In this document: in pieces, positions 244-64,000 of the stretch
Layout: every line of letters starts with the position of its first letter
Position numbering within the stretch: the stretch's first letter is position 1
Source: a virus
Strand: one strand, 5' to 3'
Virus record (IMG/VR): IMGVR_UViG_3300024980_000003
Coordinates: 1 to 64,000 of that record
Length of the DNA stretch: 64,000 nt
Made by a program: the position numbers and the translations under genes
The notes under the pieces: model-generated
What the model saw: the letters and a program-made list of their open reading frames with translations, nothing else
What the model was told of the DNA's origin: nothing
Databases searched by the model: none

Positions 244-1440
244 ATGGCATTCACCGACAAGCAGATTAAAGGACTTAAACCCAAGGCAGCGCCCTATCGC
301 CTTTTTGAAAAAGGCCCCGACAAGGGGTTCGGCATCCAGGTAACAGCAAATGGCTCGGTATCGTTTTTCATCCAGTATGCCACAAACGGGAAGAAGCGAT
401 TTTATAACTTAGGACGCTATCCCTCGGTGACGCTTTATGATGCAAGGATAAAATGCCGGGAAATCAGGGCGATGATTGATAACGGCAGCGATCCGCAAGA
501 ACAACACCCCACGCACCGTTTTGGCGTGGTGCGCGACTTGTTTGACTACTATGTAAAAAAGATGCGCGACGATGGCAAGACTACGTGGGTTGATGTGCAA
601 AATGGCCTGAATGCCAACTGCCAAGATATTATGGCTATGCAAGCTAACAAGGTTGATCCTATCCATATTAGGAAAATCCTGCATACGATCATCAACAGAG
701 GATCAGAGGTTCAGGCAAACCGTATCAGGGCTTATTTGAACCGGGCGTTTAAGCTGGGCGTTTACCATGACAATGACCCGGCAAACCTATCGAGTTCAGT
801 GATATTCCAACTCGCTATGAATCCGGTGGAAGCGATACCCAAGAACACGAAAGCCGAAGCCGCCGGTGAGCGCAACCTGTCATTTGGCGAGATCAAGACG
901 CTGTGGCATAGCAACGACATTGGCGAGCAGATGAGCATAGCCGCAAAGCTATTGTTGATTTACGGGTGCCGGATGATGGAGCTGTGCGGGGCCAAGAAAA
1001 ACGAGTTTGATTTTGACGCGATGATCTGGACGATACCTTGGGAGCGCGTTAAAACCAGCAAGAAAAATAAGCGCCCTCACCTGTTGCCGATCACGCCGCT
1101 GGCAAAAACGCTACTGGATCGGCAATTGCTCTATGCCTGGGACTCTGAGTATCTATTCCCCGGTCGGCATGACAATAGCAAACATATTCATCAAACCTCA
1201 TTGAATCATGCCATGAGGCGTGTATCCGGGCTTGATTCTTTCGATGTGAGAGCGTTACGTCGAACATGGAAAACCAGAACGGGCGAAGCTGGCATAGGTA
1301 TTGAAGTCAGGAATCTAATTCAGAACCATAGCCGAACGGATGTTAGCTCGGTGCATTATGACAAATGGAGTTATATCGCAGAAAAAAGGGCGGCTCTTGA
1401 GCGATGGGAGGCGCATCTTATTGGAATGCTGAAGGATTAA
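244..1440 (+). CDS. int: Tyrosine-family phage integrase (DUF4102 type)
   Basis: 398 residues. It catalyses site-specific recombination between phage and tRNA-Thr attachment sites. The N-terminus is the DUF4102 arm-binding fold common in tRNA-targeting prophage and island integrases (about residues 1-85, with the typical LGRYPSVTL stretch). The C-terminal catalytic domain shows Arg in YGCRMMEL, a Lys in the beta-hairpin VKTSKKNK, Arg in RALRRTWKT, His in QNHS and the nucleophile Tyr in VHYDKW. The usual His of the HxxR box is Arg here, a variant I associate with this subfamily. The ATG at 244 is preferred because upstream in-frame starts (205, GTG 121) would put the arm repeats and part of the attachment repeat into the protein. 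The stop overlaps a possible R'' box of the cassette region. It is not an IntI-type integron integrase. Confidence 0.93.
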   Translation: MAFTDKQIKGLKPKAAPYRLFEKGPDKGFGIQVTANGSVSFFIQYATNGKKRFYNLGRYPSVTLYDARIKCREIRAMIDNGSDPQEQHPTHRFGVVRDLFDYYVKKMRDDGKTTWVDVQNGLNANCQDIMAMQANKVDPIHIRKILHTIINRGSEVQANRIRAYLNRAFKLGVYHDNDPANLSSSVIFQLAMNPVEAIPKNTKAEAAGERNLSFGEIKTLWHSNDIGEQMSIAAKLLLIYGCRMMELCGAKKNEFDFDAMIWTIPWERVKTSKKNKRPHLLPITPLAKTLLDRQLLYAWDSEYLFPGRHDNSKHIHQTSLNHAMRRVSGLDSFDVRALRRTWKTRTGEAGIGIEVRNLIQNHSRTDVSSVHYDKWSYIAEKRAALERWEAHLIGMLKD

Positions 1441-1507
1441 CAACCACCATCCAGCCGGATGATTTTAAACAGACTCGCGGCTTGTCCGATTGAGCGCATA
1501 GTTATAC
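1436..1507 (+). other. Weak attC-like or attI-like site after int
   Basis: The integrase stop lies in GGATTAAC, and 60 bases further on is GTTATAC, the same box that ends the clear site at 1786-1882. The interior shows only partial pairing (CAGCCGGATGA against TTGTCCGATTG). It may be a decayed recombination site or simply the entry point of the cassette row. Confidence 0.35.
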
Positions 1508-1517
1508 AGGGGTAAGA

Positions 1518-1784
1518 ATGATAACTGGGGTAGCTATTAGAAATGAAAATATGGTGATAAGCCTACCAAGACCGAATAGGCATTCAGATTGCTTTGCATA
1601 CGCGCAAAGGATGGGAATTAATCTAAGCGAAAGCGAACTTGGAAAGAAAGCGGATCATCAGGGTTTTGTCACGCATACGGGCAAATTCCTAAACCGAGTT
1701 GAAGCGGCAAAATATCTAAAACGAACAAAGCAAAAAACATTATTCCCAATTGGTGGAATAGCAATTAGCGAGGATTTGTGGTGA
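1518..1784 (+). CDS. Small hypothetical protein, first cassette gene
   Basis: 88 residues, soluble, no membrane segment. Residues 48-60 (HQGFVTHTGKFLN) followed by RVEAAKYLKR resemble short phage and cassette proteins with a conserved GF-x-T-x-x-G-x-F-x-x-R-x-E-A pattern; I know no function for that group. An AGGGG stretch 5-9 bases upstream serves as a ribosome site. The stop is 1 base before the R'' box of the following attC-like site, the arrangement of an integron gene cassette. Confidence 0.7.
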   Translation: MITGVAIRNENMVISLPRPNRHSDCFAYAQRMGINLSESELGKKADHQGFVTHTGKFLNRVEAAKYLKRTKQKTLFPIGGIAISEDLW

Positions 1785-1785
1785 T

Positions 1786-1882
1786 GCATAACGCCGTGTT
1801 AAGCGGAAAGCCGCCACACGGTTAATTTTAACGGCGCAAATGCGCTACATGGCGGCTTTTCCGCTTGAACTAAGAGTTATAC
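1786..1882 (+). other. attC-like recombination site
   Basis: 97 bp from R'' GCATAAC (1786-1792) to R' GTTATAC (1876-1882). Between them is a long imperfect palindrome: GTTAAGCGG with AAAGCCGCC on the left pairs with GGCGGCTTTTCCGCTTGAAC on the right, one side carrying extra unpaired bases. Box order, spacers, extrahelical bases and position directly after a stop codon are the hallmarks of integron attC sites. Confidence 0.72.
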
Positions 1883-1893
1883 ATGGTGAAAAA

Positions 1894-2106
1894 ATGAACG
1901 AATGGCCTGGTGGTAAAAGACATGCAATGGATCAGGGAGAACACGAACGCTGGAATGATACGCATTATCCGGGAACGAGGCAGCTTTGTTGCAAGTGCGA
2001 CGAACCGACCGGACGTTGCGAAGAAGATTCTATCTATTCAGAAGACGGTGAGGATGGGCCGTTTTGTGAAGAGTGTTGGCGAGAGCATCCAGAATATGGT
2101 GTATAA
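1894..2106 (+). CDS. Small zinc-ribbon-like hypothetical protein
   Basis: 70 residues. Two Cys pairs (CCKC at about 37-40 and CEEC at about 62-65) and many acidic residues point to a small zinc-binding fold; the segments PGTRQLCCKCDEPTGRCEED and GPFCEECW recur in short phage and mobile-element proteins I recognise but cannot assign. Start at ATG 1894, after GGTGAAAAA. The stop TAA lies inside GTATAAC, the R''-like box of the next site, and overlaps the start of the following gene. Confidence 0.7.
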   Translation: MNEWPGGKRHAMDQGEHERWNDTHYPGTRQLCCKCDEPTGRCEEDSIYSEDGEDGPFCEECWREHPEYGV

Positions 2107-2314
2107 CGCCGAATTAACGTTCGTCGGTACGAACTTTGCGGTGCGGGTTGACAGTAAAAAACGGAGTAGGCCAAAAACAGAACGAGGCAAAGTGTGGGTA
2201 AAATCAGCATCACATCCGTTTTACGTTGGCATAAACGAGCGTGGCATATTTGAGACAAAAGAGGAGGCTGAACGCGCTAAAACAGAAACGTGGGAAATGA
2301 TCGTAAATGTATGA
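2096..2314 (+). CDS. Hypothetical cassette protein
   Basis: 72 residues, basic centre (KKRSRPKTERGK) and a hydrophilic C-terminal helix. The ATG at 2096 overlaps the previous stop, which suggests coupling, but the first 19 codons lie across the attC-like site at 2101-2152. A later GTG at about 2141 is therefore also possible. No family recognised. The stop TGA adjoins another box, ACATAAC (2314-2320), that lacks a clear partner. Confidence 0.5.
   Translation: MVYNAELTFVGTNFAVRVDSKKRSRPKTERGKVWVKSASHPFYVGINERGIFETKEEAERAKTETWEMIVNV
2101..2152 (+). other. Imperfect attC-like site
   Basis: Starts with GTATAAC (2101-2107), contains a 5-bp hairpin GTTCG/CGAAC, and may end with GTTGAC (2147-2152). 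Pairing outside the central hairpin is poor, so it may be degenerate. Confidence 0.4.
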
Positions 2315-2372
2315 CATAACAAACACATCTACTCGCGGCGACGTGGCTGACGGGGTATAATGGAGGGGCAAG

Positions 2373-2558
2373 ATGAGCACCGAAGAAGTTTTTGAAGAAC
2401 TAGGGATAAGCGAGAAGGAGGCTCTGGAATATCTGAATCAATACACATTCGGCAGCAATGAGCTGACTGGGGCGGTCAGTATTGTGCGGTTCGCCGCGTG
2501 GTTTGCGTTTGAATTGTGCAAAAATAACGAAACCAAAAAGGGTGTGCATAACGCCTAG
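2373..2558 (+). CDS. Small hypothetical protein
   Basis: 61 residues, acidic N-terminus, mostly helical, with one hydrophobic helix (IVRFAAWFAFEL) too short and mixed for a confident membrane segment. A strong GGAGG site lies 8 bases before the ATG. The reading frame runs into the attC-like site at 2546 (GCATAAC is translated as part of HNA), as is common for cassette genes. No known family. Confidence 0.65.
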   Translation: MSTEEVFEELGISEKEALEYLNQYTFGSNELTGAVSIVRFAAWFAFELCKNNETKKGVHNA

Positions 2559-2626
2559 TTAAGGCGTAGCGGCACGAACTTTAAACAACACCGCGATGCT
2601 GAACGGTGTCGCCTTGAATGACAGGC
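2546..2626 (+). other. attC-like recombination site
   Basis: 81 bp. R'' box GCATAAC at 2546-2552, left stem GTTAAGGCG, right stem CGCCTTGAAT with one extra base, and a terminal GACAGGC that resembles GTTAGGC with two changes. The upstream ORF ends inside the site. Confidence 0.62.
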
Positions 2627-2629
2627 TAT

Positions 2630-2872
2630 ATGACACTAAAAATACTTGATATAAATGAACATGATTTGCATCTGGTCGGGCTAGAGTTAAACGCATGTCC
2701 ATTTTGCGGAAGCAAAGCGTTTGCGACAGGCAGGTTTATCGAAACATCAGAGATATACCAGTATCGAGTCGCATGTATGAATCACCATTGCGGGGCAAGT
2801 GTCGCATATAATTCTCGTGATCGAAAAGATGCAGCAGATAACGCCATTAGAAATTGGCAAAAACGAATATAA
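2630..2872 (+). CDS. Lar-like restriction alleviation family protein
   Basis: 80 residues. The pattern CPFCGS (about 23-28), a second pair with HHCGAS (about 51-56) and the ending AADNAIRNWQKR is that of the Lar family of small zinc-ribbon proteins; the founding Rac prophage member relieves type I restriction. Function here is by family likeness only. The stop TAA lies inside the R''-like box ATATAAC. Confidence 0.72.
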   Translation: MTLKILDINEHDLHLVGLELNACPFCGSKAFATGRFIETSEIYQYRVACMNHHCGASVAYNSRDRKDAADNAIRNWQKRI

Positions 2873-2923
2873 CGCCTGAATTCACCGGTCGCGCGGCGGT
2901 ACGGTGGAATGAAAATTTAAAAC
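2867..2923 (+). other. attC-like site, degenerate right end
   Basis: R'' ATATAAC (2867-2873), stem GAATTCACCG paired with CGGTGGAATG including one extra base, then a weak right box ending TTTAAAAC in place of a GTT box. Probably a decayed cassette site. Confidence 0.5.
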
Positions 2924-2937
2924 TTTTGGAGAAAATA

Positions 2938-3273
2938 ATGGACTTTCAACGCTTGAGAAACCTGTCCAATGGACGATTGCACACCGAGATTGGCCACATC
3001 TACGAAGACCTGGAGACTATTACTGGCGAGCGCGGATTGATGACTCACATGCTTCCGAGAGCGGTAAGAGCGGTTAAGCCGTGGCTTCGCGAGCATGTAG
3101 CAGACCCACGTTTTTGGGATGGGGAATACGACACCGCGCACACCGGGGAGTACACATTGCCAGAGCCTACAGCAGAAGACAGGTTGGCGATGTTTGAGCG
3201 ATATAAGGCGCAACCGAACCCGCTGGAAGGTAAGGACGTGATTGCGGTGCAGGTGATGCACCTAACGCAATAA
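2938..3273 (+). CDS. DUF7736-like hypothetical phage protein
   Basis: 111 residues. The N-terminal half (LRNLSNGRLHTEIGHIYEDL, then GLMTHMLPRAVRAVKPWL) resembles a short domain seen in many prophage accessory proteins; its role is not known to me. GGAG precedes the ATG by 8 bases. The coding sequence continues into the next attC-like site and stops there (TAA 3271-3273). Confidence 0.68.
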   Translation: MDFQRLRNLSNGRLHTEIGHIYEDLETITGERGLMTHMLPRAVRAVKPWLREHVADPRFWDGEYDTAHTGEYTLPEPTAEDRLAMFERYKAQPNPLEGKDVIAVQVMHLTQ

Positions 3274-3347
3274 TAACGGGACGCGGCGACGCGAATGAAA
3301 TTTAACGAAAGATTAGGGCCGCGTTCCCGTTGATTTACGGGTTAGGC
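3260..3347 (+). other. attC site, best match in the window
   Basis: 88 bp. R'' ACCTAAC (3260-3266) and R' GTTAGGC (3341-3347) fit the RYYYAAC / GTTRRRY consensus exactly. L'' TAACGGGACGCGGC pairs with L' GCCGCGTTCCCGTTGA, the right arm carrying two extra bases that would bulge out of the bottom-strand hairpin. The preceding ORF stops inside it. Its left half is repeated almost exactly at 4026-4057. Confidence 0.82.
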
Positions 3348-3368
3348 TTAATACGGGAGAATAACATA

Positions 3369-3782
3369 ATGAGTTTTACAGATAACACAACAGGCAAATT
3401 TGAGTGGGGGACGCCACAAAGATTTTTTGATGAATTACACCGAGAATTTGGGTTTACGGTTGACGTTTGCGCTAATAAGGAGCTTGCAAAATGCCAAAAA
3501 TACTACGACAAAGAAATGGACGGGCTGAAACAAGATTGGACGGGGGAGATTTGCTGGATGAACCCGCCCTATGGAGCCGCCATAGGTATGTGGCTCAAGA
3601 AAGCGGCCGAGAGCCGTGCGACTGTGGTTTGCCTTGTGCCATCGAGGACAGACAACAAGTGGTGGCACCAATGGGTAATGACGGCATCAGAGATCCGTTT
3701 CGTGAAAGGACGGCTACGGTTTCAGGGTGCAGGGGATGGAGCAAAATTTCCTTCAGCGATAGTAATTTTTAGAGGGGCATAA
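3369..3782 (+). CDS. Phage-type DNA N6-adenine methyltransferase (Dam family)
   Basis: 137 residues. It probably methylates adenine in phage or host DNA. The order fits the compact phage Dam family (PF05869): EWGTPQRFFDELHREFGFTVDVCA at the start, catalytic NPPY motif at about 58-61 (WMNPPYG), and the late RLRFQGAGDGAKFPSAIVIF block. ATG at 3369 is preceded by GGGAGAA. The TAA stop is within the R'' box of the next attC, so the gene forms a complete gene-plus-attC unit between 3341 and 3834. Confidence 0.88.
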   Translation: MSFTDNTTGKFEWGTPQRFFDELHREFGFTVDVCANKELAKCQKYYDKEMDGLKQDWTGEICWMNPPYGAAIGMWLKKAAESRATVVCLVPSRTDNKWWHQWVMTASEIRFVKGRLRFQGAGDGAKFPSAIVIFRGA

Positions 3783-3840
3783 CGCTGGCGTAACCGGCGC
3801 GTAGCGAAGCGGAGCGTCCGCGTTGACGCAAATGTTAGGC
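3777..3840 (+). other. attC site
   Basis: 64 bp. R'' GCATAAC (3777-3783), R' GTTAGGC (3834-3840), inner stem GCGTAACCGGCGCG with CGTCCGCGTTGACGC, an offset base between the arms and a central loop containing a short GCG-rich hairpin. The methyltransferase stop codon is inside R''. Size and layout match the short class of integron attC sites. Confidence 0.8.
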
Positions 3841-3858
3841 CACGATTTTGGATGGAAA

Positions 3859-4065
3859 ATGAACGACTTTAATGACAACTACCCGAAGCAAAGAACAGGC
3901 AAAGAGTGCAAGAAAACGGATTGCGACAGGCATAAGGATTACGTTGCATGGCAATGCGGAACCGCTAGCCTTAATTTTTGCGTGGAATGCAAACATGCTC
4001 ACGTTTCGCAGTACAAGCGCAAGGGGCCTAACGCAATAATAACGGGACGCGGCGAAGCGTTATAA
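3859..4065 (+). CDS. Cys-rich hypothetical cassette protein
   Basis: 68 residues. Cys at CKKTDC, QCG and CVEC with His (RH, HAHV) suggests a small zinc-binding fold. The last third (GPNAIITGRGEAL) is translated from attC-like DNA (4026 onward), showing that the ORF has run into the recombination site; the natural protein may be this fused form. No function recognised. Confidence 0.62.
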   Translation: MNDFNDNYPKQRTGKECKKTDCDRHKDYVAWQCGTASLNFCVECKHAHVSQYKRKGPNAIITGRGEAL

Positions 4066-4066
4066 C
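4026..4066 (+). other. Truncated attC site
   Basis: GCCTAAC (4026-4032) followed by a spacer and L'' that match the left half of the site at 3260 for about 30 bases, then the sequence departs and meets GTTATAAC (4059-4066) with no right stem. It looks like an attC half joined to another site by deletion or recombination. Confidence 0.6.
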
Positions 4067-4122
4067 CACCACTTACGCGCAGTTCTCAGCAAATGCGCGT
4101 GTTTTCACGACATGATTAATAC
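4060..4122 (+). other. Possible attC-like hairpin
   Basis: Begins TTATAAC, has inner arms ACGCGCA and TGCGCGT, and ends near ATTAATAC (4115-4122), which resembles the GTTATAC boxes seen elsewhere in this row. Spacing is right but the end boxes are degenerate. Confidence 0.38.
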
Positions 4123-4135
4123 AGGATGAAGTAGA

Positions 4136-4285
4136 ATGAACGAAGCAGAAAAGCTACGTGCGGCAATAAATACTATTGAATCGAGAGTAGTTGAGTTTTT
4201 GCTTGCCAGAATATTTGGGAGAAAATTCTATTGCAACGATAGAACTTATGCTGAGTACAAAGGTAAAACATACCTGCTTAATTAA
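4136..4285 (+). CDS. Short hypothetical protein
   Basis: 49 residues, basic, helix-forming (MNEAEKLRAAINTIESRVVEF) with an aromatic C-terminus ending KTYLLN. An AGGATGAAG stretch precedes the ATG. It sits between two hairpin elements like its neighbours, and its stop is inside the palindromic repeat at 4280. No family recognised. Confidence 0.5.
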   Translation: MNEAEKLRAAINTIESRVVEFLLARIFGRKFYCNDRTYAEYKGKTYLLN

Positions 4286-4327
4286 GCCAGTAATTCAGCC
4301 TCAATAGTCCGGCGCTTAGTCAAGCCA
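4280..4327 (+). repeat. 48-bp palindromic repeat, copy 1
   Basis: About 42 of 48 positions match the element at 5140-5187, and both copies start at the AATTAA containing the stop codon of a small gene. The arms TTCAGC and GCTTAG are a weaker palindrome than in copy 2. It lies where cassette attC sites would be, but has no standard R boxes. Confidence 0.6.
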
Positions 4328-4345
4328 CAACACACAAGGAACATA

Positions 4346-4612
4346 ATGAGTTTTTCAGAAGAAATAGTCTCAGCAGCAAGGCCAGCAAAAGGTTTTGATG
4401 TTGCGCCATACCGAGTAAAGAGTTTTCCCAAAGGCAACGGGTTAAGTTGTGTATGCAACGCTTACGGCTTTAATTGCACTACTTTTATTACGAAACCGGG
4501 GGCCGTCATGACGACGCTTGATGATGCAACAGAGATTGCAAGACGATGGAACATGGGGAGCGGATTCCAAACCAGTATGCCGATTTTCACGACAATAGGA
4601 AAAACAGAATGA
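4346..4612 (+). CDS. Hypothetical protein
   Basis: 88 residues, soluble, with NAYGFNCTTF and a hydrophilic C-terminal helix (DDATEIARRWN). An AAGGA site lies 6 bases before the ATG. Its stop overlaps the next start (ATGA at 4609), so this and the next two genes are likely one translational unit within a single cassette. No function assigned. Confidence 0.6.
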   Translation: MSFSEEIVSAARPAKGFDVAPYRVKSFPKGNGLSCVCNAYGFNCTTFITKPGAVMTTLDDATEIARRWNMGSGFQTSMPIFTTIGKTE

Positions 4613-4851
4613 CCTTACGCGATGAAATAATGAATTTGCCTTGTGATGATGATTGCTCGTTAATTTATATGATGGGTCATCATGAAGCCAGACATGCTGC
4701 CGCCGAGTTAGCAATAAAGTACGACGCGGCGATGGCAGAAATTGAGCGCATTGCTGACAGGCTGGGGTCAGACAGAAACTATGAGCGCTGCATTGCCGTG
4801 GAAGATTTGCTTCAGGTGTTAGCTAATTTCGATCTTGGCGATGCAGGATAA
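4609..4851 (+). CDS. Hypothetical protein, coupled to the preceding gene
   Basis: 80 residues, acidic, largely helical (RHAAAELAIKYDAAMAEIERIADRL), with a potential short coiled coil. ATGA overlap with the previous stop indicates coupled translation. The next gene follows after 3 bases. No recognised family. Confidence 0.6.
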   Translation: MTLRDEIMNLPCDDDCSLIYMMGHHEARHAAAELAIKYDAAMAEIERIADRLGSDRNYERCIAVEDLLQVLANFDLGDAG

Positions 4852-4854
4852 GAA

Positions 4855-5145
4855 ATGAAACCAGAAGATATTAAATACCCTAGAGATATATTTGCCGATT
4901 TAATTATAGGCAATAGCCCGTATGCTTTTTATTTCTTTCAGTGGGTTCCATATCAAACCGATGCTAAACGATGGCGCTTAAAGCTATTTCATGACGTAAA
5001 GACATTTGATGGTAGAGAGGCATTTGGTATTTGGCCTAATGGAGGAAGTTGCGGCCCGTTTAAAGATGAGGAAGTGGAGTTTATACGGTTGAGCAAAGAG
5101 CAGTTTGGAAGCACCTATCAAGACCCAAGAGATAAGGCTAATTAA
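4855..5145 (+). CDS. Hypothetical protein
   Basis: 96 residues, rich in Phe, Tyr and Trp (YAFYFFQWVPYQ), no signal peptide. It follows the previous stop by 3 bases. It ends in the second copy of the 48-bp palindromic repeat. It is the last plus-strand gene before the lysis block, which faces it across a terminator. Confidence 0.6.
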   Translation: MKPEDIKYPRDIFADLIIGNSPYAFYFFQWVPYQTDAKRWRLKLFHDVKTFDGREAFGIWPNGGSCGPFKDEEVEFIRLSKEQFGSTYQDPRDKAN

Positions 5146-5187
5146 GCCAGTAACTCAGCCTCAACATTCCTGCGCTGAGTCAAGCCA
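5140..5187 (+). repeat. 48-bp palindromic repeat, copy 2
   Basis: Begins at the same point relative to a stop codon as the copy at 4280. Central arms ACTCAGC and GCTGAGT are perfectly complementary around a 12-base loop region, and AAGCCAG is directly repeated at the two flanks. Probably a diverged cassette end or a mobile palindromic unit. Confidence 0.6.
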
Positions 5188-5210
5188 GCCAGCACAATAT
5201 ATAAAAGCAA

Positions 5211-7148: not shown

Positions 7149-7195
7149 GCGTATAACCTTGCGTATGATTAATATTGATGTATAATTATACGCAT
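7147..7195. promoter_or_regulatory. Divergent promoter and operator of RHH gene and tnpB
   Basis: ATGCGTATAA (7147-7156) and TTATACGCAT (7186-7195) form a perfect inverted repeat, with a third copy of the core, GCGTAT, at 7161-7166. On the plus strand TTGCGT (7159-7164) and TATAAT (7181-7186) lie 16 bases apart and form a good sigma-70 promoter for tnpB. Operator sites overlap it and both ATGs. Confidence 0.65.
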
Positions 7196-8327
7196 GATGA
7201 TACAAAAATCCTATAAATTCAAGTTCTACCCAAATGCTGCGCAAGCCGAACAGCTGCAAAAAGAATTCGGCTGTGCGCGGTGGACATGGAATCGTGGATT
7301 GATTGAACGGGATTATGCGTATTCTCAATGGGGCGTTAGCCTGGGTTCTTTGCATGACATTGGAAAGAATATAAATCAGTACAAGAAGAATGATTATCCT
7401 TGGCTAAGTGATGCAACATCGAGCGTTATTCAGCAAAAGCTAATCGACCAAGATAAAGCGTTTAATAATTTCTTTAAAGGTCGGGCAGGTTTTCCAAAGT
7501 TCAAAAAGAAAAGCCATGCTCAAAGCATCCGCTATACGCTTGACCAGCGACAGGTTTTAAACAATTACCGGTCTGGTGAATTGTTAAAGCTGCCAAAATT
7601 GGGCGAATTAAAGATTAAATGGTCACAAGTCCCAGGCGGCATACCCAAGATGGTCACGGTATCGAAGTCGGCAAGCGGATGTTATTTCGTCAGCTTCATG
7701 TGTGAGGTCGAGCAAGACTTAAAACCGATGACCGGCAAGGTGATCGGTATTGATGTTGGTATCAAGGATGTGGTCGTAACCAGTGACGGCTTTTATTCAG
7801 GCGCGCCCAGGTTTACCTATAAGTACGCACGGCAATTGAAGAAAGCGCAACGGGTTTTAAGCCGTAAGAAAAAAGGCAGTAATGGATTTAAGAAGCAACG
7901 GATTGTGGTAGCAAAGATTCACGAAAAGATTGCAAACAGTAGAAAAGATTTTTTGCACAAAGTGACAACCAAGCTTGTGTCTGAAAATGATATTTTGTTT
8001 TTGGAAGATTTAAACGTTTCCGGGATGCTCAAGAATCGTAAGCTATCAAAAGCGGTTGCGGATGTGGGCATTTTTGAACTCAATAGGCAAATCGAGTACA
8101 AATCTCAGTGGTACGGCAAGCAGGTTGTTAAAATCAGCCGTTGGGAGCCTACGACGAAGAAGTGTAGTTCATGCGGGAATATTCGCATTATGAAATTATC
8201 GCAACGTACTTATGAGTGCGAATGTGGTTTAGTAATGTGCCGCGATCTTAACGCAGCGCATAATATTAAGGCGGCGGGGAACGTCGTTATGAGTGGAGCC
8301 GTACACCAAATTGATAAAGCCGCATGA
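7194..8327 (+). CDS. tnpB: TnpB RNA-guided nuclease (IS605 family)
   Basis: 377 residues. TnpB uses an RNA made from the element's right end to cut matching DNA. The RuvC-like site appears complete: Asp in GIDVG (about 186), Glu in FLEDLNV (about 278) and Asp in CRDLNAAHN (about 355). The zinc finger is CSSC and CEC, the second pair being one residue shorter than the usual CxxC. An N-terminal OrfB_IS605 domain (SYKFKFYPNAAQ) is intact. No tnpA nearby. A divergent RHH gene may control it. Confidence 0.92.
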   Translation: MMIQKSYKFKFYPNAAQAEQLQKEFGCARWTWNRGLIERDYAYSQWGVSLGSLHDIGKNINQYKKNDYPWLSDATSSVIQQKLIDQDKAFNNFFKGRAGFPKFKKKSHAQSIRYTLDQRQVLNNYRSGELLKLPKLGELKIKWSQVPGGIPKMVTVSKSASGCYFVSFMCEVEQDLKPMTGKVIGIDVGIKDVVVTSDGFYSGAPRFTYKYARQLKKAQRVLSRKKKGSNGFKKQRIVVAKIHEKIANSRKDFLHKVTTKLVSENDILFLEDLNVSGMLKNRKLSKAVADVGIFELNRQIEYKSQWYGKQVVKISRWEPTTKKCSSCGNIRIMKLSQRTYECECGLVMCRDLNAAHNIKAAGNVVMSGAVHQIDKAA

Positions 8328-8445
8328 GAATGATGCTTGTATCAAACGGCCGTGAAACTCGACCTGCTCTAACTGATAGCTTTCGCCTGGAGCGAGGCGG
8401 TCAGCTTGTAAGCGGATTCCAAAGGTTTTGAAGCCTATTTATTTA
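8328..8445 (+). ncRNA. Candidate omega-RNA or right-end region of first tnpB element
   Basis: Noncoding stretch after tnpB with several hairpins, such as GCTTTCGCCTGGAGCGAGGC. In this superfamily the guide RNA comes from the tnpB 3' end plus this region. I cannot fix the exact end or guide start. Confidence 0.38.
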
Positions 8446-8500
8446 ACGGGTGGTTTTGTGTAATCTATTATGCTCCCAAAAAATACCCAGAAGAACAATC

Positions 8501-9406
8501 ATGGATAAAAATACGCTTGCCACAATCACTGGCGACATACAACCTACAGCCTGGTCTGCGTCTGCATTAAAGAAAATGCCGCTTGATGAACTGATTAAAA
8601 AATATGTGTTGGTTGAGCATACGCAATGGTACATGAAATGTATGTTGCTTTACGCTATGAGATTTATATTAAAGTCGAATCAAGAATACGGTAAGGTCTG
8701 CCAGCAATTACGCGAGGACGGCATTTGCCATGAGGATCAAGGGACGATGAACCGTTACGTAAACTCAGGGATTTATCTTGAGAAGATGAAAATATCCGAC
8801 CTTACTAAAGTCGGGTTCAAAAAACAGTTTGTCTATGACTTAGCGGCTCCAATCAATGCAGATATTTCAGAGTCCGTCACTCATGAACTTCGGCAGATAC
8901 CAATCGAAGATAGGCGCAAGCTAACAATCGAAGCAGTTCGAGAAATGATAAGAAAGGCTAAACAGAAACTCAATCCAGCACTTGAGTACGACAGCGTGGT
9001 GGCAACTATTGAAAAAATGCGTGATGACGATCCGGCGCATTATCATGAAGGTGCTATTGATCTTATTAAGCAGTATGCCGAAGAAAGCAAGCAAAATATT
9101 TCTCAGATTGAATCTGAATTGATTGATCGCGGCATAGTCGTGCCAGAACCAGCCCAAGCCCAGCAAGCGGTCTCACGCCTGATGCAGTCCATACTTGATG
9201 AAGAACCGGACACCGTCAAGCCCATGACGCGGCGCAGAGAGCTTATATTAGAATTGTCTAATATGGATAATGGCGCCGTATCGGATGATGATATTCTGGA
9301 AGATTACGCACTACTGGACAAGAGCTATCGGCGCACGTTGTTGAAGCTGGCAGAGCTGCATAATAATAGAAAAAACATCATTCAAGATGCTATCTATAAG
9401 AAATGA
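8501..9406 (+). CDS. Hypothetical protein, DNA-binding or regulatory style
   Basis: 301 residues, soluble, helix-rich and charged. The N-terminal part (DELIKKYVLVEHTQWYMKC, then REDGICHEDQGTMNRYVNSG) could be helical recognition modules, and the C-terminus (ILEDYALLDKSYRRTLLKLAELH) is a likely coiled region. ATG 8501 is used; it lacks a strong ribosome site. It lies between a tnpB element and the structured RNA region and could be cargo. I recognise no family. Confidence 0.6.
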   Translation: MDKNTLATITGDIQPTAWSASALKKMPLDELIKKYVLVEHTQWYMKCMLLYAMRFILKSNQEYGKVCQQLREDGICHEDQGTMNRYVNSGIYLEKMKISDLTKVGFKKQFVYDLAAPINADISESVTHELRQIPIEDRRKLTIEAVREMIRKAKQKLNPALEYDSVVATIEKMRDDDPAHYHEGAIDLIKQYAEESKQNISQIESELIDRGIVVPEPAQAQQAVSRLMQSILDEEPDTVKPMTRRRELILELSNMDNGAVSDDDILEDYALLDKSYRRTLLKLAELHNNRKNIIQDAIYKK

Positions 9407-9423
9407 TGTGTTATAATTACCAC

Positions 9424-9927: not shown

Positions 9928-10027
9928 TGGTGTAATGCGTAGGCGAGACGCAATGAGTGTAGTCGTGATGCATGTAAATGCTCCAGCTTTAATAGCGACA
10001 ATGCCGGGATCGCATCCGGCCACCAAC
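9926..10027 (+). ncRNA. tRNA-like element 2
   Basis: Acceptor GTTGGTG (9926-9932) with CACCAAC (10021-10027), D-arm-like TGCG/CGCA hairpin, T-arm-like GCCGG/CCGGC hairpin and a middle with nested GTCG/CGAC and GCAT/ATGC pairs. Its T-arm loop shares GGGATCGCATCC with element 1, so the two are related copies. Confidence 0.58.
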
Positions 10028-10040
10028 TTCAAATCAATCT

Positions 10041-10072
10041 AAGCCTAAGCGCCTATCTCGGTGCTTGGGCTT
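10041..10072 (+). terminator. Terminator after the structured RNA
   Basis: AAGCCTAAGC pairs with GCTTGGGCTT around a 12-base loop and is followed by TTGTTG. It would end the transcript that contains both tRNA-like elements. Confidence 0.6.
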
Positions 10073-10109
10073 TGTTGTCCGCGAATCATTGATAGCAGTG
10101 GGTAAGGAA

Positions 10110-10934: not shown

Positions 10935-12194
10935 ATGACAAAAACGATACGAAAAGCCTTTAAATTTAGGTTAAAAATTACACCTGAAACCGATGAAAAA
11001 TTAAATAATTTCGTTGGTGGATGTCGCTTTGTCTGGAACAAGTCGTTGGCTCTGAATCTGGATAGATTAAACAACAAAGAGCCTATTTTGTGGTATCAGG
11101 AGCTTAATTTTTGGGCAACAATTTGGAAGCAGTCTAATGAATACGGTTTTCTAAGCACTGTTCCTTCTCAGGCACTACAGCAAAAACTAAAAGACCTGGA
11201 TAAAGCGTTCAGTGATTGCTTTGATAAGAATCAGCCATTAAAGCGTTGCCCTGTATTCAAGAAAAAAGGACTATCCGATAGCATACGATTCCCTCAAGGC
11301 TTTAAGATCGATCAAGAAAATAGTCAGATTTTCCTGCCCAAAATAGGCTTTGTGAAATATCGCAATAGCCGCAAGGTAATTGTAGAGCCTAAGAATATCA
11401 CTGTAAGCCGCAAAGGTAAGCACTGGTACGCTTCTATTCAGGTTGAGTACGACAAAATAGATATGCCTCATAAATCAACGTCAATCGTTGGTATTGATAT
11501 GGGCGTTAAGCAGTTCTCTACTCTATCTGACGGCACTATATACCAGCCATTAAATAGTTTTAAAGGTAAAGCTGAAAAGTTAGCCAAGCTTCAACGAAAG
11601 CTAAAAAACAAAAAGAAATTCTCAAGTAATTGGAAAAAAGTAAAAACAAAAATAACAAAGTGCCATGAAGAAATAGCCAACGCTCGAAAAGATTACCTTC
11701 ACAAAGTATCAACTGAAATCTGCGAAAACCAAGCCGTGATAGTCGTTGAAGATTTGAAGGTAAAGAATATGAGCAAGTCGGCAAAAGGCAACCATGAAAA
11801 GCATGGAAAAAACGTTGCTCAAAAATCAGGATTGAACAAGTCAATTCTCGATCAAGGGTGGGGCATGTTTTTTCAAATGCTGGACTATAAGCAAGCCTGG
11901 AATGGTGGCATGGTTCTCAAAGTGCCTGCGCACCATACAAGTCAAACTTGCCCATGTTGCCAGCATGTAGCCAAAGAAAACAGACTCACACAAGCTGACT
12001 TTGTTTGTGTCGATTGCGGCTACAGCAATAACGCCGATATAGTTGGAGCATTGAATGTATTAAGCCGGGGACACCGGCAGTTAGCCTGCCTAGCGAGTGG
12101 TGAAGTAATACCACCGGCAACAGGAACCAGTGGTAAGCGGCGACGCAAGATCACTTCTGAGAAATCAGGAATCACCATTCCTTTAGGGCGGTGA
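10935..12194 (+). CDS. tnpB: TnpB RNA-guided nuclease, second and unrelated copy
   Basis: 419 residues. Domain order is N-terminal OrfB_IS605 (KAFKFRLKITPE), RuvC-like core and C-terminal zinc finger. Catalytic residues are Asp in GIDMGVKQF, Glu in VVEDLKV and Asp in NNADIVGALNVL; zinc Cys are CPCC and CVDC. It differs strongly from the tnpB at 7194, so the two came from separate insertions. The basic tail after the finger (GKRRRKITSEKSG) is encoded by DNA that also forms the 3' guide-RNA scaffold. No tnpA is present. Confidence 0.9.
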   Translation: MTKTIRKAFKFRLKITPETDEKLNNFVGGCRFVWNKSLALNLDRLNNKEPILWYQELNFWATIWKQSNEYGFLSTVPSQALQQKLKDLDKAFSDCFDKNQPLKRCPVFKKKGLSDSIRFPQGFKIDQENSQIFLPKIGFVKYRNSRKVIVEPKNITVSRKGKHWYASIQVEYDKIDMPHKSTSIVGIDMGVKQFSTLSDGTIYQPLNSFKGKAEKLAKLQRKLKNKKKFSSNWKKVKTKITKCHEEIANARKDYLHKVSTEICENQAVIVVEDLKVKNMSKSAKGNHEKHGKNVAQKSGLNKSILDQGWGMFFQMLDYKQAWNGGMVLKVPAHHTSQTCPCCQHVAKENRLTQADFVCVDCGYSNNADIVGALNVLSRGHRQLACLASGEVIPPATGTSGKRRRKITSEKSGITIPLGR

Positions 12195-12415: not shown

Positions 12416-15400
12416 TTGAAGTAAGGGTGCGACCTTTCCACCGCCATGCGTGACACTTCGTTAGATCGTTGCATCAGTGCGTTAATCCTATCGCGCTTAT
12501 CAGTAGCACTTAGATTGCTGCGGTAAATTACATCCACCTGCGCCCTGAGTCTGCTCAACTGCTTGCCGGAAGCTTCCAGTTGACGGCGCTTGCTCAACTT
12601 GTCGGCATTATCGGTCATTAGCTCGTTGGCCTTGTCGATATTGCCTTCTTTCTTGTACGCGTTAATCGTCTTATGGATTTGATTGACTTCGTTCAGCATA
12701 TCGTAAAACTCAGTACCGTATTTGGTGTGCAGCGTGGGACGCTCCTGATAGAACGCTTTCACGACCGGCAAACTGTCAATCCTCATCGCTGGCTGATCCG
12801 GCATCCCCGATAACTGCCTAACCATCATATCCGATGCGCCCAAGGCGTACATGCCTAATGCGCCAAGATAGCCATGCAGTAAATGCTCCAGACGTTTGGG
12901 CGATGCACCTAATGCTTCCGGCAAGGACGCGCTTAACGCTCGCATGGTTTCGCTAGTGTATTCGTTATAACGTGCGCTCGGCAATTTGCCTTCGTCGGCC
13001 ATGCCTTCAATCGCCCTGCCGGTAAACATATCCTTGTTGGAGTACAGTTCGATGAACGGTTTGAATAGCTGCGGTACTGGATTGAAAGCCAAGGTATCGC
13101 TTGCGCCATGCCCCATGCGTTCGGCGTAAGTTTTCAAACTGTCTTTGCCGATCAACGCTCTCGCTGAACGCTCAGGAACAGTGCCAAAGATCAAGCCTAA
13201 CTCGAACGGTTTAGGTATCCTAAAGTGTTGATTTCCAAAGAAGAAATGCCAGTAGGTGTCTTGATCCCACGGTTCCAAAGCTTCGTAATCATCGTTATCC
13301 GAATTGAGTGCCAGCAATGCCAAAGAGAACATGGCAATCGATAAGCCTTTCGCCAGAATCATTTTCCGCGCTTCCTTGGTCTGACCTGCTTTCGCCAATC
13401 GATACAGGCCAACCAATCGGGCATTGAAGAACGGCAGCATGTCACTCATGGCCCGGATCAGCGTAAACGATCCCTGCATCGAAAAGTCCATCAGGTCTTT
13501 GGCTTCAAACAGGTATTTGGCTTTTTCTGCCCCCGCGCGTTTAGCGTTTTCAAGAATCGCTTCACGGCTGGCGTTTTCAATCGCATCGCCCACGGACCGG
13601 TACATTTCCCAATACTTCTTCGGGGTGTCGAGAATGGAATCTTTAAAGCCTTGAACGTCCTTAATGCCGCGCCTTCTCAGTGCCGCATCCATCGACTCCC
13701 TGGCCGCATCCGGGTTGCTGTAGTTGCCATAGCCGCCCTGGAATGACGCCCCGGCAAACATCATATCGACATAGCCACCTTCTTCGTTGAAAGACTTAAT
13801 CGCCCCATGAATCGAGTCAACACCGAGCTTAAAGCCTTTTTCTTCGGCAATCGTCCAGGAGTGCATGGCGTCACGGATAAAGTTTCTGGCCATGAACGTC
13901 GGGTCGGCGGTCACAGCACCGGTCAGCAAATGCTTCATGTAGCGCATTGGCTTGAAGATGCCGCCGAACGGGATTTGATTTACGGCCGTCAATGAAGTCA
14001 GCAGCATGGCATCGTTGACTTTGTAGTATTCCGACTTACCATCACGCATAACCCTAACCACATCGGGATCAGTCGGCGCTTGCATGGCCCACATCTTGGC
14101 AATACCACTCGTCAAATCAGACGGCATGGCCTCGACGATTTCTTTCGGCAAGCCCGATTCCAGCATCAGTTTTTTAACCTGCTCCTTGGGGATCAGTGCC
14201 GCCTTTAATTCAACTCTCTGGATAGCCTCGACAAAGCGCGAGCCTTCCAGATTATTCAGCGTTTTGTTCAAGGCGTCGTTCTTCATCGACGCATCGATCA
14301 AATGCGCCCAATTCTGCATCATGTTGCCGAGTGGGTCGCTCATCGGGTTATCGCCGCCTTTCAGCATTTTGATACCGGAGGTTTGGTGGGTCAGTCCACC
14401 CTTACCGCTTGGGCCTGATTTCTTGCCTTCGATCAGCCGGTAAAACGGGATATAGTCGGCGCTCTCGAACAGCTTACGCGCTTCCGCATCCACCAGTCCG
14501 GCCTCTTGCGCCAAGTCCAGCACCGAGCTATTCATGGCGGCGATGTCATCAGCCACACCTTGATAGTCGTCTTGTTCCAATTTCAGCAAGGCATCGATTT
14601 CGTCACGACTGAAATTGTTCTCTTTGCCTTCCTTAAACAATCGGTCTGCTCTGCGCCCGACCATCCAGGCAGTGAAGTTTTCCAAGTCATCCTTGACCGG
14701 CTGCAATAGCTCGGCAAACGACTTGCTGCCGTCTTTTTTCTGGATAATGCCGCCCTCCCATTTCGGCGCACCATGCAACAGCAACGCTTGCATCGTTGAG
14801 CTTGAGCCGGTTGATAGTCTTGCACTGATATAGCCTGATACCGAATGCGCCACATCGCCGAGGATTTCTTTCTCTGCGCGCTTAATGCCGATGAACTTAT
14901 CGAATATGCCCTGCTCCAGTTGCGGCTTCATTTCATCCCATTTCTGCCGGATGGCTTGAACATTAGCTTTCAGCCCGAGACTGATAATGTCGGTGATGGC
15001 TTGAGATAGCGTTTTCTTCGGGCCGAGTCCGGCCTTGCGTTTAGCTTCTTTGATAACATCGCTATCGACAGCCCTACTATACTTCACTCCGGTTTTATCG
15101 CCGCCCTTGGCTTCATAGTCATAGGCATCACCATACCAGCGTTCGGTTTTGGGACGGTTTTTATTCTTGGCGTCTTTGCTCAGTCCTACTTTGTCGCCGC
15201 CGTAGTTCTCGTAATCGTAAGCGTTGCCTTGCCATTTGTCGGCGTTTCTCGGTGCAGGAATATGATTCATTTCCTTGCCATTGAATAGCACAATCACATC
15301 ACTGTCTTGAATGTCTGCGGTGGCGCTTGGTGGCGTGGATTTGCGTTGCTCGGCGGTTAGTTCTTGTCGGGCTTGTGTGTTTCTTGACTCAACCTCTCCA

Positions 15401-58349: not shown

Positions 58350-58455
58350 GTTGGTGTAGCTCAGTGGTTAGAGCTGGGGGCGGCATGCCTAGTAGTCAAT
58401 TAACTAGCGAACCCTGTAAGTAGACTCAGCGCCGGTTCAAGTCCGGCCACCAACA
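58350..58455 (+). ncRNA. tRNA-like element 3
   Basis: Acceptor GTTGGTG (58350-58356) with CACCAAC (58448-58454), a canonical D-arm (GCTCAGTGGTTAGAGC) and a canonical T-arm (GCCGGTTCAAGTCCGGC). Between them, instead of a 17-base anticodon arm, are 55 bases with a GGCATGCC palindrome and a CTAGT/ACTAG hairpin with loop AGTCAATTA. No CCA is encoded. It is closer to a true tRNA than the elements at 9.7-10.0 kb. Confidence 0.62.
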
Positions 58456-59268: not shown

Positions 59269-59386
59269 AGAGCAATGCGAAGAACTTGAAGCAATGGGGT
59301 ATTCGTTGCTTGAGCTTGAGCCAGAATCAAAATATGCCCGTTACATGCTTAACGGGAATGTTAGAGTTATCGGGAGAAAGAAATGA
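59249..59386 (+). CDS. Short hypothetical protein
   Basis: 45 residues, with QCEELEAMGYSLLELEPESK and a beta end RYMLNGNVRVIG. Overlaps the next gene (ATGA at 59383). No family. Confidence 0.5.
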   Translation: MSKKQFKEQCEELEAMGYSLLELEPESKYARYMLNGNVRVIGRKK

Positions 59387-60219
59387 CCAACATAGCGACA
59401 ATCAAAAAAGAATCGCAAGTACCGGCGCTGGCTATCAGCGAGACTGAATTAATGGATGTATTGCGTAATTCTCTTTATCCAGGCGCACAAGATAACAGCA
59501 TCAAGATGGTTATTGGTTACTGCAAAGCGTCTGGCCTTGATCCTATGCGTAAGCCGGTTCATATCGTGCCGATGTGGGATAGCAAATCAGGCTCCATGCG
59601 TGATGTGATTATGCCGGGGATCGGTAGTTATCGATCCGATGCCGCTAAATCAGGGCAATACGCTGGCGTTTCCGTTGCTGAGTTCGGGCCTGATATTACT
59701 GAAAACATTGGAGGCGTTGAAATCACTTACCCGCAATGGTGCCGAGTCATTGTCAAGCGTCAGATAGCTCATGGGCAAATAGCTGAGTTTGCGGCTACGG
59801 AACGCTGGAAAGAAAACTATGCGGTGCGCGGAGGAAAGGATAAATCAATTGCGCCTAATGCCATGTGGTCTAAGCGTCCTTATGCCCAGCTTGAAAAATG
59901 CGCCGAAGCGCAAGCACTCAGAAAAGCGTTTCCAGAAGTCGGTTCGCAACCCACTGCCGATGAAATGGAAGGAAAAGCATTTGACGATGGCGCAACCGTG
60001 ATTGACGGCGCAACCGGAGAAATTATCAACAAGCAGACAGTAAGACCGGCACTGGAATATTGCACCGCTGAAAAGTTTCAAGAGAACCAGGCCAAGTGGC
60101 GCAACCTGATCGAATCCGGTAAAGAGACTGCGGATAACTTAATCATTAAACTCAAATCTAAAACCCTGTTCACCGATGAGCAGATGACGGAAATCAAATC
60201 TTGGGAAGCAGGAGAATAA
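59383..60219 (+). CDS. bet: Single-strand annealing recombinase (Red beta/RecT superfamily)
   Basis: 278 residues. It anneals complementary single strands during phage recombination. Typical blocks: LRNSLYPGAQDNSIKMVIGY, ASGLDPMRKPVHIVPMWD, MPGIGSYRSDAAKSGQYAGV, RWKENYAVRGGKDKSIAPNA and MWSKRPYAQLEKCAEAQALR. The C-terminus is helical and may bind SSB. It is followed at once by the partner exonuclease. Confidence 0.93.
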   Translation: MTNIATIKKESQVPALAISETELMDVLRNSLYPGAQDNSIKMVIGYCKASGLDPMRKPVHIVPMWDSKSGSMRDVIMPGIGSYRSDAAKSGQYAGVSVAEFGPDITENIGGVEITYPQWCRVIVKRQIAHGQIAEFAATERWKENYAVRGGKDKSIAPNAMWSKRPYAQLEKCAEAQALRKAFPEVGSQPTADEMEGKAFDDGATVIDGATGEIINKQTVRPALEYCTAEKFQENQAKWRNLIESGKETADNLIIKLKSKTLFTDEQMTEIKSWEAGE

Positions 60220-60221
60220 CC

Positions 60222-61913
60222 ATGCAAATACATGACTTAGAGCAAGGTTCGCACGAGTGGATTCAGTTCAGACGAAACCATGACGGCGCAAGCGAAATAG
60301 CCGCAGTAATTGGCATTTCCAAAAACACCACTCGCAATGAACTGTTGCGACTCAAAAGCACTGGAATGGAAAAGGAATTTTCTGATTACGTGCAAAAATA
60401 CGTGTTAGATAAAGGCCACGAAGTCGAAGCATTAGCAAGACCTATTGTCGAGTCAATGATTGGCGAAGAACTTTACCCTATAGTTGCATCTAAAGGTGGT
60501 CGTTTATCAGCTTCATGCGACGGACTAACGCTGATGGGAGAGTTTGGCTGGGAAAACAAGCAGTATAACCAAGAATATTTTGATCTGGTTTCATCGGGTA
60601 TTGTGCCAGAAGAACACATACCACAAGTACAGCAATGCTTAATGGTAACAGGCGCAGAAAAGTGGTTTTTTACCGTATCTGACGGCACCCAAGAAAGAAC
60701 CGCTGGCGTATGGGTTTATCCTGACCAAGATTGGTTTAATCGCATCGAATCAGCATGGAATCAGTTTCATAAAGACCTTGCTGATTATGTTCCGGTAGCC
60801 GTCATCGAGCCACCCAAAGCCGAAGCCATTAAAGACTTGCCAGCGGTAACAGTGCAAGTGCGCGGCGAACTAACACTGTGCAACATCCAAGATGTAACAC
60901 CATTGTTTGATAAGTTTCTGGCCGAAGCTAAAACCAATTTGGTGACTGATGAAGATTTTGCCCAAGCCGAAGCCGAAGCAAAACTTGGCCGGGAAACCGC
61001 GAAACGCTGCAAGCTGACCGCCAAAGCCGTAGTCGATCAGATGCTATCCATCAGCGAAGTAACACGCACATTGGAAGAATATGCGGCCAAGTTTGACGCG
61101 CTGGCATTGAGGCAAGAAAAGGCGGTTAAGGAACAAAAAGAAACGCGCAAAGCGACGGCAAAGCTTGAGCGTGACAAAGCGTATGCCGAGCATATAGCGG
61201 TATTGAATGAAGAAATTAAGCCTATCTATTTGGCATTAAGCACGACCGACAAGCCTGACTTTGTTGGCGTTATGAAAGGACAGCGTACTTTAGCCAGTAT
61301 TTATAACAAGCTTGATACCGAACTAGCTCGTGCCAAGATTGCGGCTGATGCCGTGGCTAAGTCAGTCAGATTGAATCTAAACCTAATTAATGGGCAGCCA
61401 ATCTACAAGTTCTTATTCAACGATATTCAGAATATTATTTATAAGGATTTTGATGATCTGAAATTGTTAGTTGATTCGCGCATTGAAGCGCATCAAAAAG
61501 CCGAAGCCGAAAAGCTGGAACAAGAGCGAGAACGCATTCGCCAAGAAGAACAAGCCAAGGCGAAACGCGAAGCTGAAGCCAAGTTACGCGCGGAACAGGC
61601 CGAAAAAGAGCGTATTGAGCGCGAGGCTAAGCAAGCTTCGGCACTGGCTGAGCGTGAAAGGCTTGAGCGTGAAAATCAGGAAATGCTTGAGCTGGCGAAA
61701 AATAAAGCCGGCACCGAAGAACCTACTGCTATTGCGCCAGCGAAACAAGCAGAAGTCGAGCATGTTGTTGAGCAGCTTATTGATAACGCAAAGCAAGTGC
61801 GCCCAACGGCAGATGAATTACTTAAACTCATATCGTCTCATTATTCAGTGTCTATTGGTACCGCTATTGATTGGATTGTTGAGGCGGCTGAGTCAATTCA
61901 GGAGTCGGCTTAA
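60222..61913 (+). CDS. YqaJ-type recombination exonuclease with long C-terminal extension
   Basis: 563 residues, over twice lambda Exo. Residues 1-200 are the YqaJ nuclease: QGSHEWIQFRRNHDGASEIA, catalytic Asp in SASCDGL and Glu-x-Lys in WENKQY. It makes single strands for Bet. From about 210 the chain is a helical extension with a long charged coiled coil (about 425-500, Glu, Lys, Arg and Ala-rich). The extension might hold DNA or partner proteins. ATG 60222 has GGAGAA upstream. Confidence 0.82.
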   Translation: MQIHDLEQGSHEWIQFRRNHDGASEIAAVIGISKNTTRNELLRLKSTGMEKEFSDYVQKYVLDKGHEVEALARPIVESMIGEELYPIVASKGGRLSASCDGLTLMGEFGWENKQYNQEYFDLVSSGIVPEEHIPQVQQCLMVTGAEKWFFTVSDGTQERTAGVWVYPDQDWFNRIESAWNQFHKDLADYVPVAVIEPPKAEAIKDLPAVTVQVRGELTLCNIQDVTPLFDKFLAEAKTNLVTDEDFAQAEAEAKLGRETAKRCKLTAKAVVDQMLSISEVTRTLEEYAAKFDALALRQEKAVKEQKETRKATAKLERDKAYAEHIAVLNEEIKPIYLALSTTDKPDFVGVMKGQRTLASIYNKLDTELARAKIAADAVAKSVRLNLNLINGQPIYKFLFNDIQNIIYKDFDDLKLLVDSRIEAHQKAEAEKLEQERERIRQEEQAKAKREAEAKLRAEQAEKERIEREAKQASALAERERLERENQEMLELAKNKAGTEEPTAIAPAKQAEVEHVVEQLIDNAKQVRPTADELLKLISSHYSVSIGTAIDWIVEAAESIQESA

Positions 61914-63818: not shown

Positions 63819-63849
63819 AAAAAAAATCCTTGAGATTGAGTTCAAGGCT
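63819..63849 (-). terminator. Terminator downstream of the tRNA-Thr fragment
   Basis: Read leftward, CCTTGA and TCAAGG pair and are followed by eight T. This is how a host tRNA gene would end, so the fragment at 63860 may be derived from a former host copy. The left fragment at 32-80 has no such hairpin in the 31 bases available. Confidence 0.65.
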
Positions 63850-63859
63850 TTGATTTAAT

Positions 63860-63908
63860 TGGAGCCAATGACGGGAGTCGAACCCGTGACCTACTGATTA
63901 CGAATCAG
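63860..63908 (-). pseudogene. 3' fragment of tRNA-Thr, second copy
   Basis: Same extent as 32-80, with T-stem ACGGG/CCCGT in place of GCGGG/CCCGC: a base pair changed on both sides. The 5' half is again missing and replaced by phage-type sequence. Confidence 0.78.
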
Positions 63909-64000
63909 GACGGTTATTATTCTGGCCTGTTCTTGCTAGGATTTTAATGTGTCATCAAGTGCCTGTTTTACAGGGCTTGCAGCTTTTCGTCATTCCTTTC
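63860..64000. repeat. Right attachment repeat
   Basis: Matches 32-172 at all but two positions and is cut by the window end. It continues into the integrase leader rather than into a tRNA 5' half. Confidence 0.85.

Follow-up and report, generated by a model that had tools for sequence, protein, structure and literature searches.

The window analysed here is a stretch of 64,000 nucleotides from the 64,014-base IMG/VR virus record IMGVR_UViG_3300024980_000003. It is the integrated provirus of a P22/F116-like temperate phage and carries, directly behind the phage integrase gene, a group of attC sites, the sites at which integron gene cassettes are recombined by the integron integrase IntI. At least four attC sites lie within 2.1 kb, and the region from 1436 to 4115 is a CALIN (a cluster of attC sites without IntI). 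The sites are inverted relative to the genes between them, and this reversal recurs in many other virus contigs.

The phage tyrosine integrase (244-1440, plus strand) has an arm domain of the DUF4102 type (Arm-DNA-bind_3, PF13356, E 1.4e-17) and a Phage_integrase domain, as an earlier note on this DNA had proposed. Its stop codon TAA (1438-1440) overlaps the sequence GATTAA|C, which is the left end of the array. All array genes described below are on the plus strand and all sites on the minus strand; the comparisons are with the relative L001, which has 64,401 bases and an integrase 94% identical to that of the window. The first site (site 0, 1436-1507) is a degenerate attC with an intact right half, in which the R''-type box reads GTATAAC on the minus strand. 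It is followed by a gene for 88 amino acids (1518-1784), which has no counterpart at that place in L001, by the complete attC site A (1786-1882) and by a gene for a CxxC-rich protein of 70 amino acids (1894-2106), whose stop codon is formed by the TAA within the next box, GTATAAC. This is the left box of an attC remnant (2101-2150) whose body has no attC score. A gene for 61 amino acids, common to the window and L001 (2373-2558), precedes attC site B (2546-2631), in which the left, cleaved R' box GTTATGC is intact and the right R'' box is degenerate.

The second half of the array begins with a Lar-like restriction-alleviation protein (2618-2872; PF14354, E 1.9e-9), a weak and degenerate attC (2867-2922) and a DUF7736 protein shared with L001 (2938-3273; PF24875, E 1.1e-16). 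Site C (3260-3347) is chimeric relative to L001, its left half matching the L001 site at 9420 and its right half that at 14429. It is followed by a Dam-type DNA N6-adenine methyltransferase (3369-3782; PF05869, E 1.1e-28) and by attC site D (3777-3840); both the Dam and the Lar-like cassettes had been recognised in the earlier note. The array ends with an open reading frame of 68 amino acids (3859-4065) and a chimeric half-site (4023-4115), the left half of which is of the site-C type and the right part of which resembles an L001 hairpin at 10022-10087. A second repeat family, AATTAAGCCAGTAAYTCAGCCTCA...GTCAAGCCA, is present after gene ends 3' of the attC array (4279-4345 and 5139-5187); it recurs in L001 (10380-10428) and is not attC by the model described below.

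The hairpins are attC sites

A covariance model (R1) was built from 16 attC sites of class 1 integrons, Vibrio and phage TJE1, each oriented with its cassette gene and none taken from the window; it was self-trained on these known sites as an equivalent of the published attC model of IntegronFinder. In a search space of 264 kb the model matched 1786-1882 with 39.6 bits (E 1.4e-6), 2546-2631 with 28.5 bits and 3777-3840 with 28.4 bits (E about 8e-4), and weakly 2867-2922 (20.1 bits, E 0.09); there was no further match in the window at E <= 5. With the filters off, 3777 and 2867 alone were recovered at full length, which we think reflects long loops at the other sites that exceed the hit length of the unfiltered model.

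A second scorer, which combines a position weight matrix with pairing and does not use Infernal, takes its weights from the same alignment as R1. It gave 57, 48, 39 and 36 for the sites at 1786, 2546, 3260 and 3777, adding site C to those found by the model; the maximum was 28.5 for the rest of the window and 23.8 for 241 kb of shuffled sequence. The hairpins are therefore attC sites, beyond chance, and the four sites proposed in the earlier note stand, three as strong R1 matches and the one at 3260 by the second scorer.

Folding of the DNA agrees with this in part. Site A is stable (z-score about -4), as is site C (-2.2 to -2.8); site B is weak and site D gives no signal. Sites A and C thus combine the R''/L''/L'/R' architecture, including an unpaired base, with a folded single strand; sites B and D have the attC architecture by the covariance model, but their predicted folds are weak. 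The cleaved R' box is the left box at every site and reads GTTATGC or GTTAGGT on the minus strand, so that the degenerate right end of site B is its non-cleaved R''. The earlier note had named the boxes by the direction of the genes, and had therefore exchanged R' and R''.

attC polarity is reversed

The R1 matches in the window, in L001, in the virus contig L002 and in the phage sequence MW202573 are all on the minus strand, and the intervening genes are on the plus strand, which for the window is confirmed by the Pfam matches of Dam, Lar and DUF7736. In class 1 integrons, Vibrio, Shewanella and phage TJE1 the gene and its attC are on one strand. The canonical cassette, a gene with a downstream attC on the same strand, is found in none of the window, L001 and MW202573. 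The arrangement assumed earlier, of a gene followed by its own attC and joined at the right-hand GTT box, is not supported.

In attC sites the bottom strand folds more stably than the top strand. When the scorer assigned the polarity, this held for 152 of 216 virus sites and for 323 of 476 bacterial sites, a bias which supports the polarity without reference to the genes. GTT is present in the cleaved box of about 99% of 223 virus sites, although the scorer itself favours GTT.

Virus and bacterial arrays compared

Two orientation-neutral DNA patterns yielded 63 further virus loci with attC-like sites; R1 found 245 sites in these loci and the four starting sequences. As a bacterial control, the first of the two patterns gave 80 loci, mostly from Lysobacteraceae, many of whose arrays have ten or more sites. 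The patterns favour one type of L box, which makes this a survey of mainly that attC family rather than a census. Polarity was measured from the longest open reading frame on each strand between neighbouring sites. Before the removal of redundancy the virus intervals comprised 78 reversed and 23 same-strand, and the bacterial intervals 43 and 301; with redundancy removed, the ratio of reversed to same was 69:12 in viruses against 43:299 in bacteria. By contig the non-redundant virus set divides into 33 reversed, 5 same and 8 ambiguous, and the bacterial set into 2 reversed, 60 same and 1 ambiguous (Fisher p 9e-19). The two bacterial contigs called reversed are L188 and L244, the latter ambiguous on inspection.

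TerL, searched with one family model, is present in 16 of 50 virus contigs, many of which are fragments. IntI scores over the NCBIfam cut-off in two of 50 attC-bearing virus contigs, L129 (3300020202_000093) and L108 (3300034053_000051), which are candidates for phage-borne integrons or misassigned bacterial contigs; for this reason some of the surveyed virus contigs may be bacterial.

The array is not a fixed trait of the phage lineage, since R1, run over 50 records that were mostly contigs from a terminase search and many of them fragments, found arrays in L001, L002 and MW202573 only, L002 having entered the set through its Dam gene. The second scorer found no site in P12002L.

Genes carried in the reversed arrays

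The coding strand was checked by scanning 80 reversed-strand and 80 same-strand open reading frames from virus arrays. The reversed-strand frames matched 13 Pfam and 65 PHROG families, against 1 and 4 for the same-strand frames, and all of the same-strand matches came from one frame. DNA modification is prominent among the reversed genes, with N6_N4 methylases, Dam, D12 and Mom; other products are RNA ligase and PAPS reductase-like and queuine-transferase-like proteins. Dam and Lar in the window, and the Mom-like proteins of other arrays, are likely to be counter-defence genes.

The provirus

A direct repeat of 158 bp, 97% identical, is found at both ends of the provirus (16-172 and 63842-64000); the left copy includes a tRNA 3' end that, judging by its sequence, probably belongs to tRNA-Thr. 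The assignment to P22/F116-like temperate phages is based on these att repeats, the integrase, a repressor, a phage major head protein and the related portal protein and terminase. Among named phages the terminase is closest to Xanthomonas phage PBR31 (70%) and to environmental phages from Manatee Spring, and the portal protein to Pseudomonas phage 8P and F116-like phages (48-50%). The provirus also encodes an O-like replication protein, together with a RecT-like annealing protein and a RecE-like exonuclease (59383-61913, plus strand). No match to IntI (TIGR02249) was found in the window record or in L001, and the record contains no complete integron with intI and attI. The picture drawn in the earlier note, of a CALIN-like array without IntI beside a phage integrase in a provirus, is thus borne out. 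In a blastn search the array matched none of the named phages and plasmids.

Two genes that resemble OrfB/TnpB in sequence (7194-8327 and 10935-12194) are both absent from L001 at those places. Rfam reports a tRNA-like match of 106 nt at 58350-58455 (46.7 bits), which ARAGORN does not report.

Exchange of genes between the hairpins

The window and L001 are homologous up to position 1507, where a GTTATAC box ends. The next part of the window holds two genes and site A, in the place of which L001 has a single unrelated gene. From 2103, within a box, the homology continues over two attC sites and the genes for Lar and DUF7736, and it is lost once more within site C. L001 has a second array far from its integrase (14430-15090), with sites that are 87-88% identical to sites A and C of the window. 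This array starts at GCGGTAA|C, the stop codon of a gene whose copy in the window ends with GCGGTAA|TCAG and has no array behind it. Four junctions between the two sequences are informative; that at L001 14435 is exactly at the left-box cut, and that at 2103 starts at the left box. The second of the OrfB/TnpB-like genes occupies the place of the second L001 array.

The Dam gene of the window recurs in L002, a contig that is otherwise unrelated, where it is part of a reversed attC array; the DNA identity is 90% and is confined to 3369-3777. The same gene is found in virus contigs L003 and L004, in which no attC was found. A block of 651 bp is common to L152 and L156 (94%) and has left boxes at both ends. 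The hairpin core ACAACCACCATCCAGCCGGATGATTTTAAACAGAC (window 1440-1481; L001 9733-9800) occurs twice in L001, each time before a different gene, so that hairpin and gene have been reassorted. In L118 (6877-9239) two reversed attC sites flank a tyrosine integrase gene (7825-8988); the site that follows the gene shares 79% identity with site A of the window. An early excess of junction starts at left boxes across the survey (13:0) was discarded, as the bacterial control showed that it was mostly common attC sequence at the left edge.

Proposed mechanism and alternative explanations

We propose, with a probability of about 60%, that the array is a phage CALIN of mirror polarity, whose cassettes are exchanged through a host IntI acting in trans and later by annealing through the attC repeats. 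The likely recombinase is the host IntI, and annealing of the RecET type probably contributes.

In the proposed mechanism, cassettes would be gained and lost while the phage resides in a host with a chromosomal integron that supplies IntI. The enzyme would bind the coding strand, which is the one that folds in this case, and cut the left box at RYYTAA|C. The mobile unit would then be an attC with its downstream gene, and the cut would often coincide exactly with the stop codon of the preceding gene. An array would start at a gene end of the form TAA-C, which reads G|TTA on the opposite strand and would serve as an attG-like target. Entry at such ends would fix the polarity against the operon, and only genes reversed relative to their attC would be expressed with the phage and hence kept. 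Alternatively, the polarity may arise because transcription exposes the coding strand. Later annealing through the attC repeats would make the chimeric sites. A stop codon overlaps the TAA of the box in 92 of 202 virus and in 253 of 449 bacterial cases; being common in both sets, this overlap gives no specific support for entry at stop codons.

Several observations count against the proposal. Two of the four window/L001 junctions are off the predicted cut, one at a right box (1507) and one inside site C (about 3283-3333), and IntI cutting alone is thus insufficient for the mosaic. The earlier note had expected cassettes to be gained and lost at the cleaved box; different genes are indeed found between the same hairpins in L001, but the junctions are only partly at the predicted box. 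Under stricter counting, the virus-wide junctions at left and right boxes number 4:2 for starts and 5:4 for ends, a weak difference. Several window sites are degenerate or chimeric, and these sites, together with the off-cut junctions, mean that the array may be partly decayed. The normal polarity of phage TJE1 shows that reversal is not universal.

The chimeric hairpins show that attC sites also recombine internally, by annealing or by homologous recombination, and it is conceivable, if rather unlikely, that no other process is at work: the hairpins would be former attC sites on which IntI is no longer active, and the RecE/RecT-like annealing functions of the phage, or host RecA, would use attC repeats of 20-90 nt as homology. 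The window has the RecT- and RecE-like genes for this. Three chimeras, namely site C, the half-site at 4023 and the site at 9420 of L001, have their joints within the hairpin, an outcome that a one-box IntI cut cannot produce, and the virus junctions are scattered over left boxes, right boxes and elsewhere. Annealing gives no reason, however, for the uniform polarity, the preserved GTT box or the bottom-strand folding bias, and the second array of L001 begins precisely at the predicted IntI cut.

The array could also be a piece of a host chromosomal integron captured passively, as in Vibrio phage Va_90-11-286_p16. Such captures exist (L093, and examples in PMC9892861), but the normal polarity would persist in them, as it does in 60 of the 62 classifiable bacterial contigs, and here the cassettes encode phage-type genes and L001 has two separate arrays; we regard this origin as improbable. 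Least credible of all is a chance likeness to attC of regulatory RNAs or terminators, since a model from unrelated attC sites scores the R, L and spacer features of these hairpins far above shuffled DNA and no Rfam family matches the array at the gathering threshold (the one tRNA-like match lies elsewhere), even though the hairpins lie between small co-directional genes and attC hairpins are thought, according to PMC9892861, to hold weak terminators.

Relation to known integrons

Phage CALINs with methylase cassettes, MW202573 among them, were described by Qi et al. 2023 (PMC9892861). When six attC sites from virulent phages were tested, five proved able to recombine with attI1, and the attC sites of TJE1 work with IntI1 (PMC9892861). 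Those CALINs resemble the window in being attC clusters without IntI that carry DNA methylase cassettes; in MW202573 the sites are reversed as they are here, and its terminase is 65% identical to that of the window. The window differs from that set in that its array lies in an integrated provirus beside the integrase and that a relative with exchanged genes is available. The sedentary chromosomal integrons and CALINs of Lysobacteraceae (Xanthomonadales) share with the window the attC motif, the spacing and the stop-codon overlap; unlike in the window, gene and attC share a strand in 60 of the 62 contigs that could be classified.

Insertion of cassettes at attG sites (Loot et al. 2024, as cited in PMC12444791 and PMC11023631) would explain how cassettes enter at a short GTT site without attI, in this case TAA|C at stop codons. 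One array start with an array-free relative was seen here (L001 14435). Integrons have also been presented as libraries of anti-phage defence (2025 papers, as cited in PMC12444791). The cassettes of the window, like those of the defence integrons as so cited, serve phage-host conflict, with the difference that here the phage is the carrier and the genes (Dam, Lar) are likely counter-defence genes.

No statement of reversed polarity in phage CALINs was found in the consulted part of PMC9892861 or in the other literature searched, a search that left most subscription papers outside. Set against these sources, phage CALINs, methylase cassettes and IntI1 activity are already known, and the reversed polarity appears to be new.

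That dozens of virus contigs show the reversal, and bacterial integrons hardly ever do, suggests that phages have a reversed collection of their own of exchangeable anti-defence genes. A more general form of this idea, for which we consider the odds even, is that phages maintain a separate cassette pool in which attC precedes the gene and lies on the other strand, a pool that is compatible with bacterial IntI, is mutually silent with bacterial cassettes and has its polarity under selection; the selection might act through entry at TAA|C stop codons, or through exposure of the coding strand in transcription or replication. The polarity rule provides a simple computational test for the phage origin of CALINs, and the origin and orientation of cassettes become testable by comparing phage and bacterial pools. 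If the idea is correct, one recombinase would serve both sides of the phage-host conflict and neither pool would be expressed in the arrays of the other, since phage genes would be read in antisense from the promoter of the host integron, and host cassettes likewise within phage operons.

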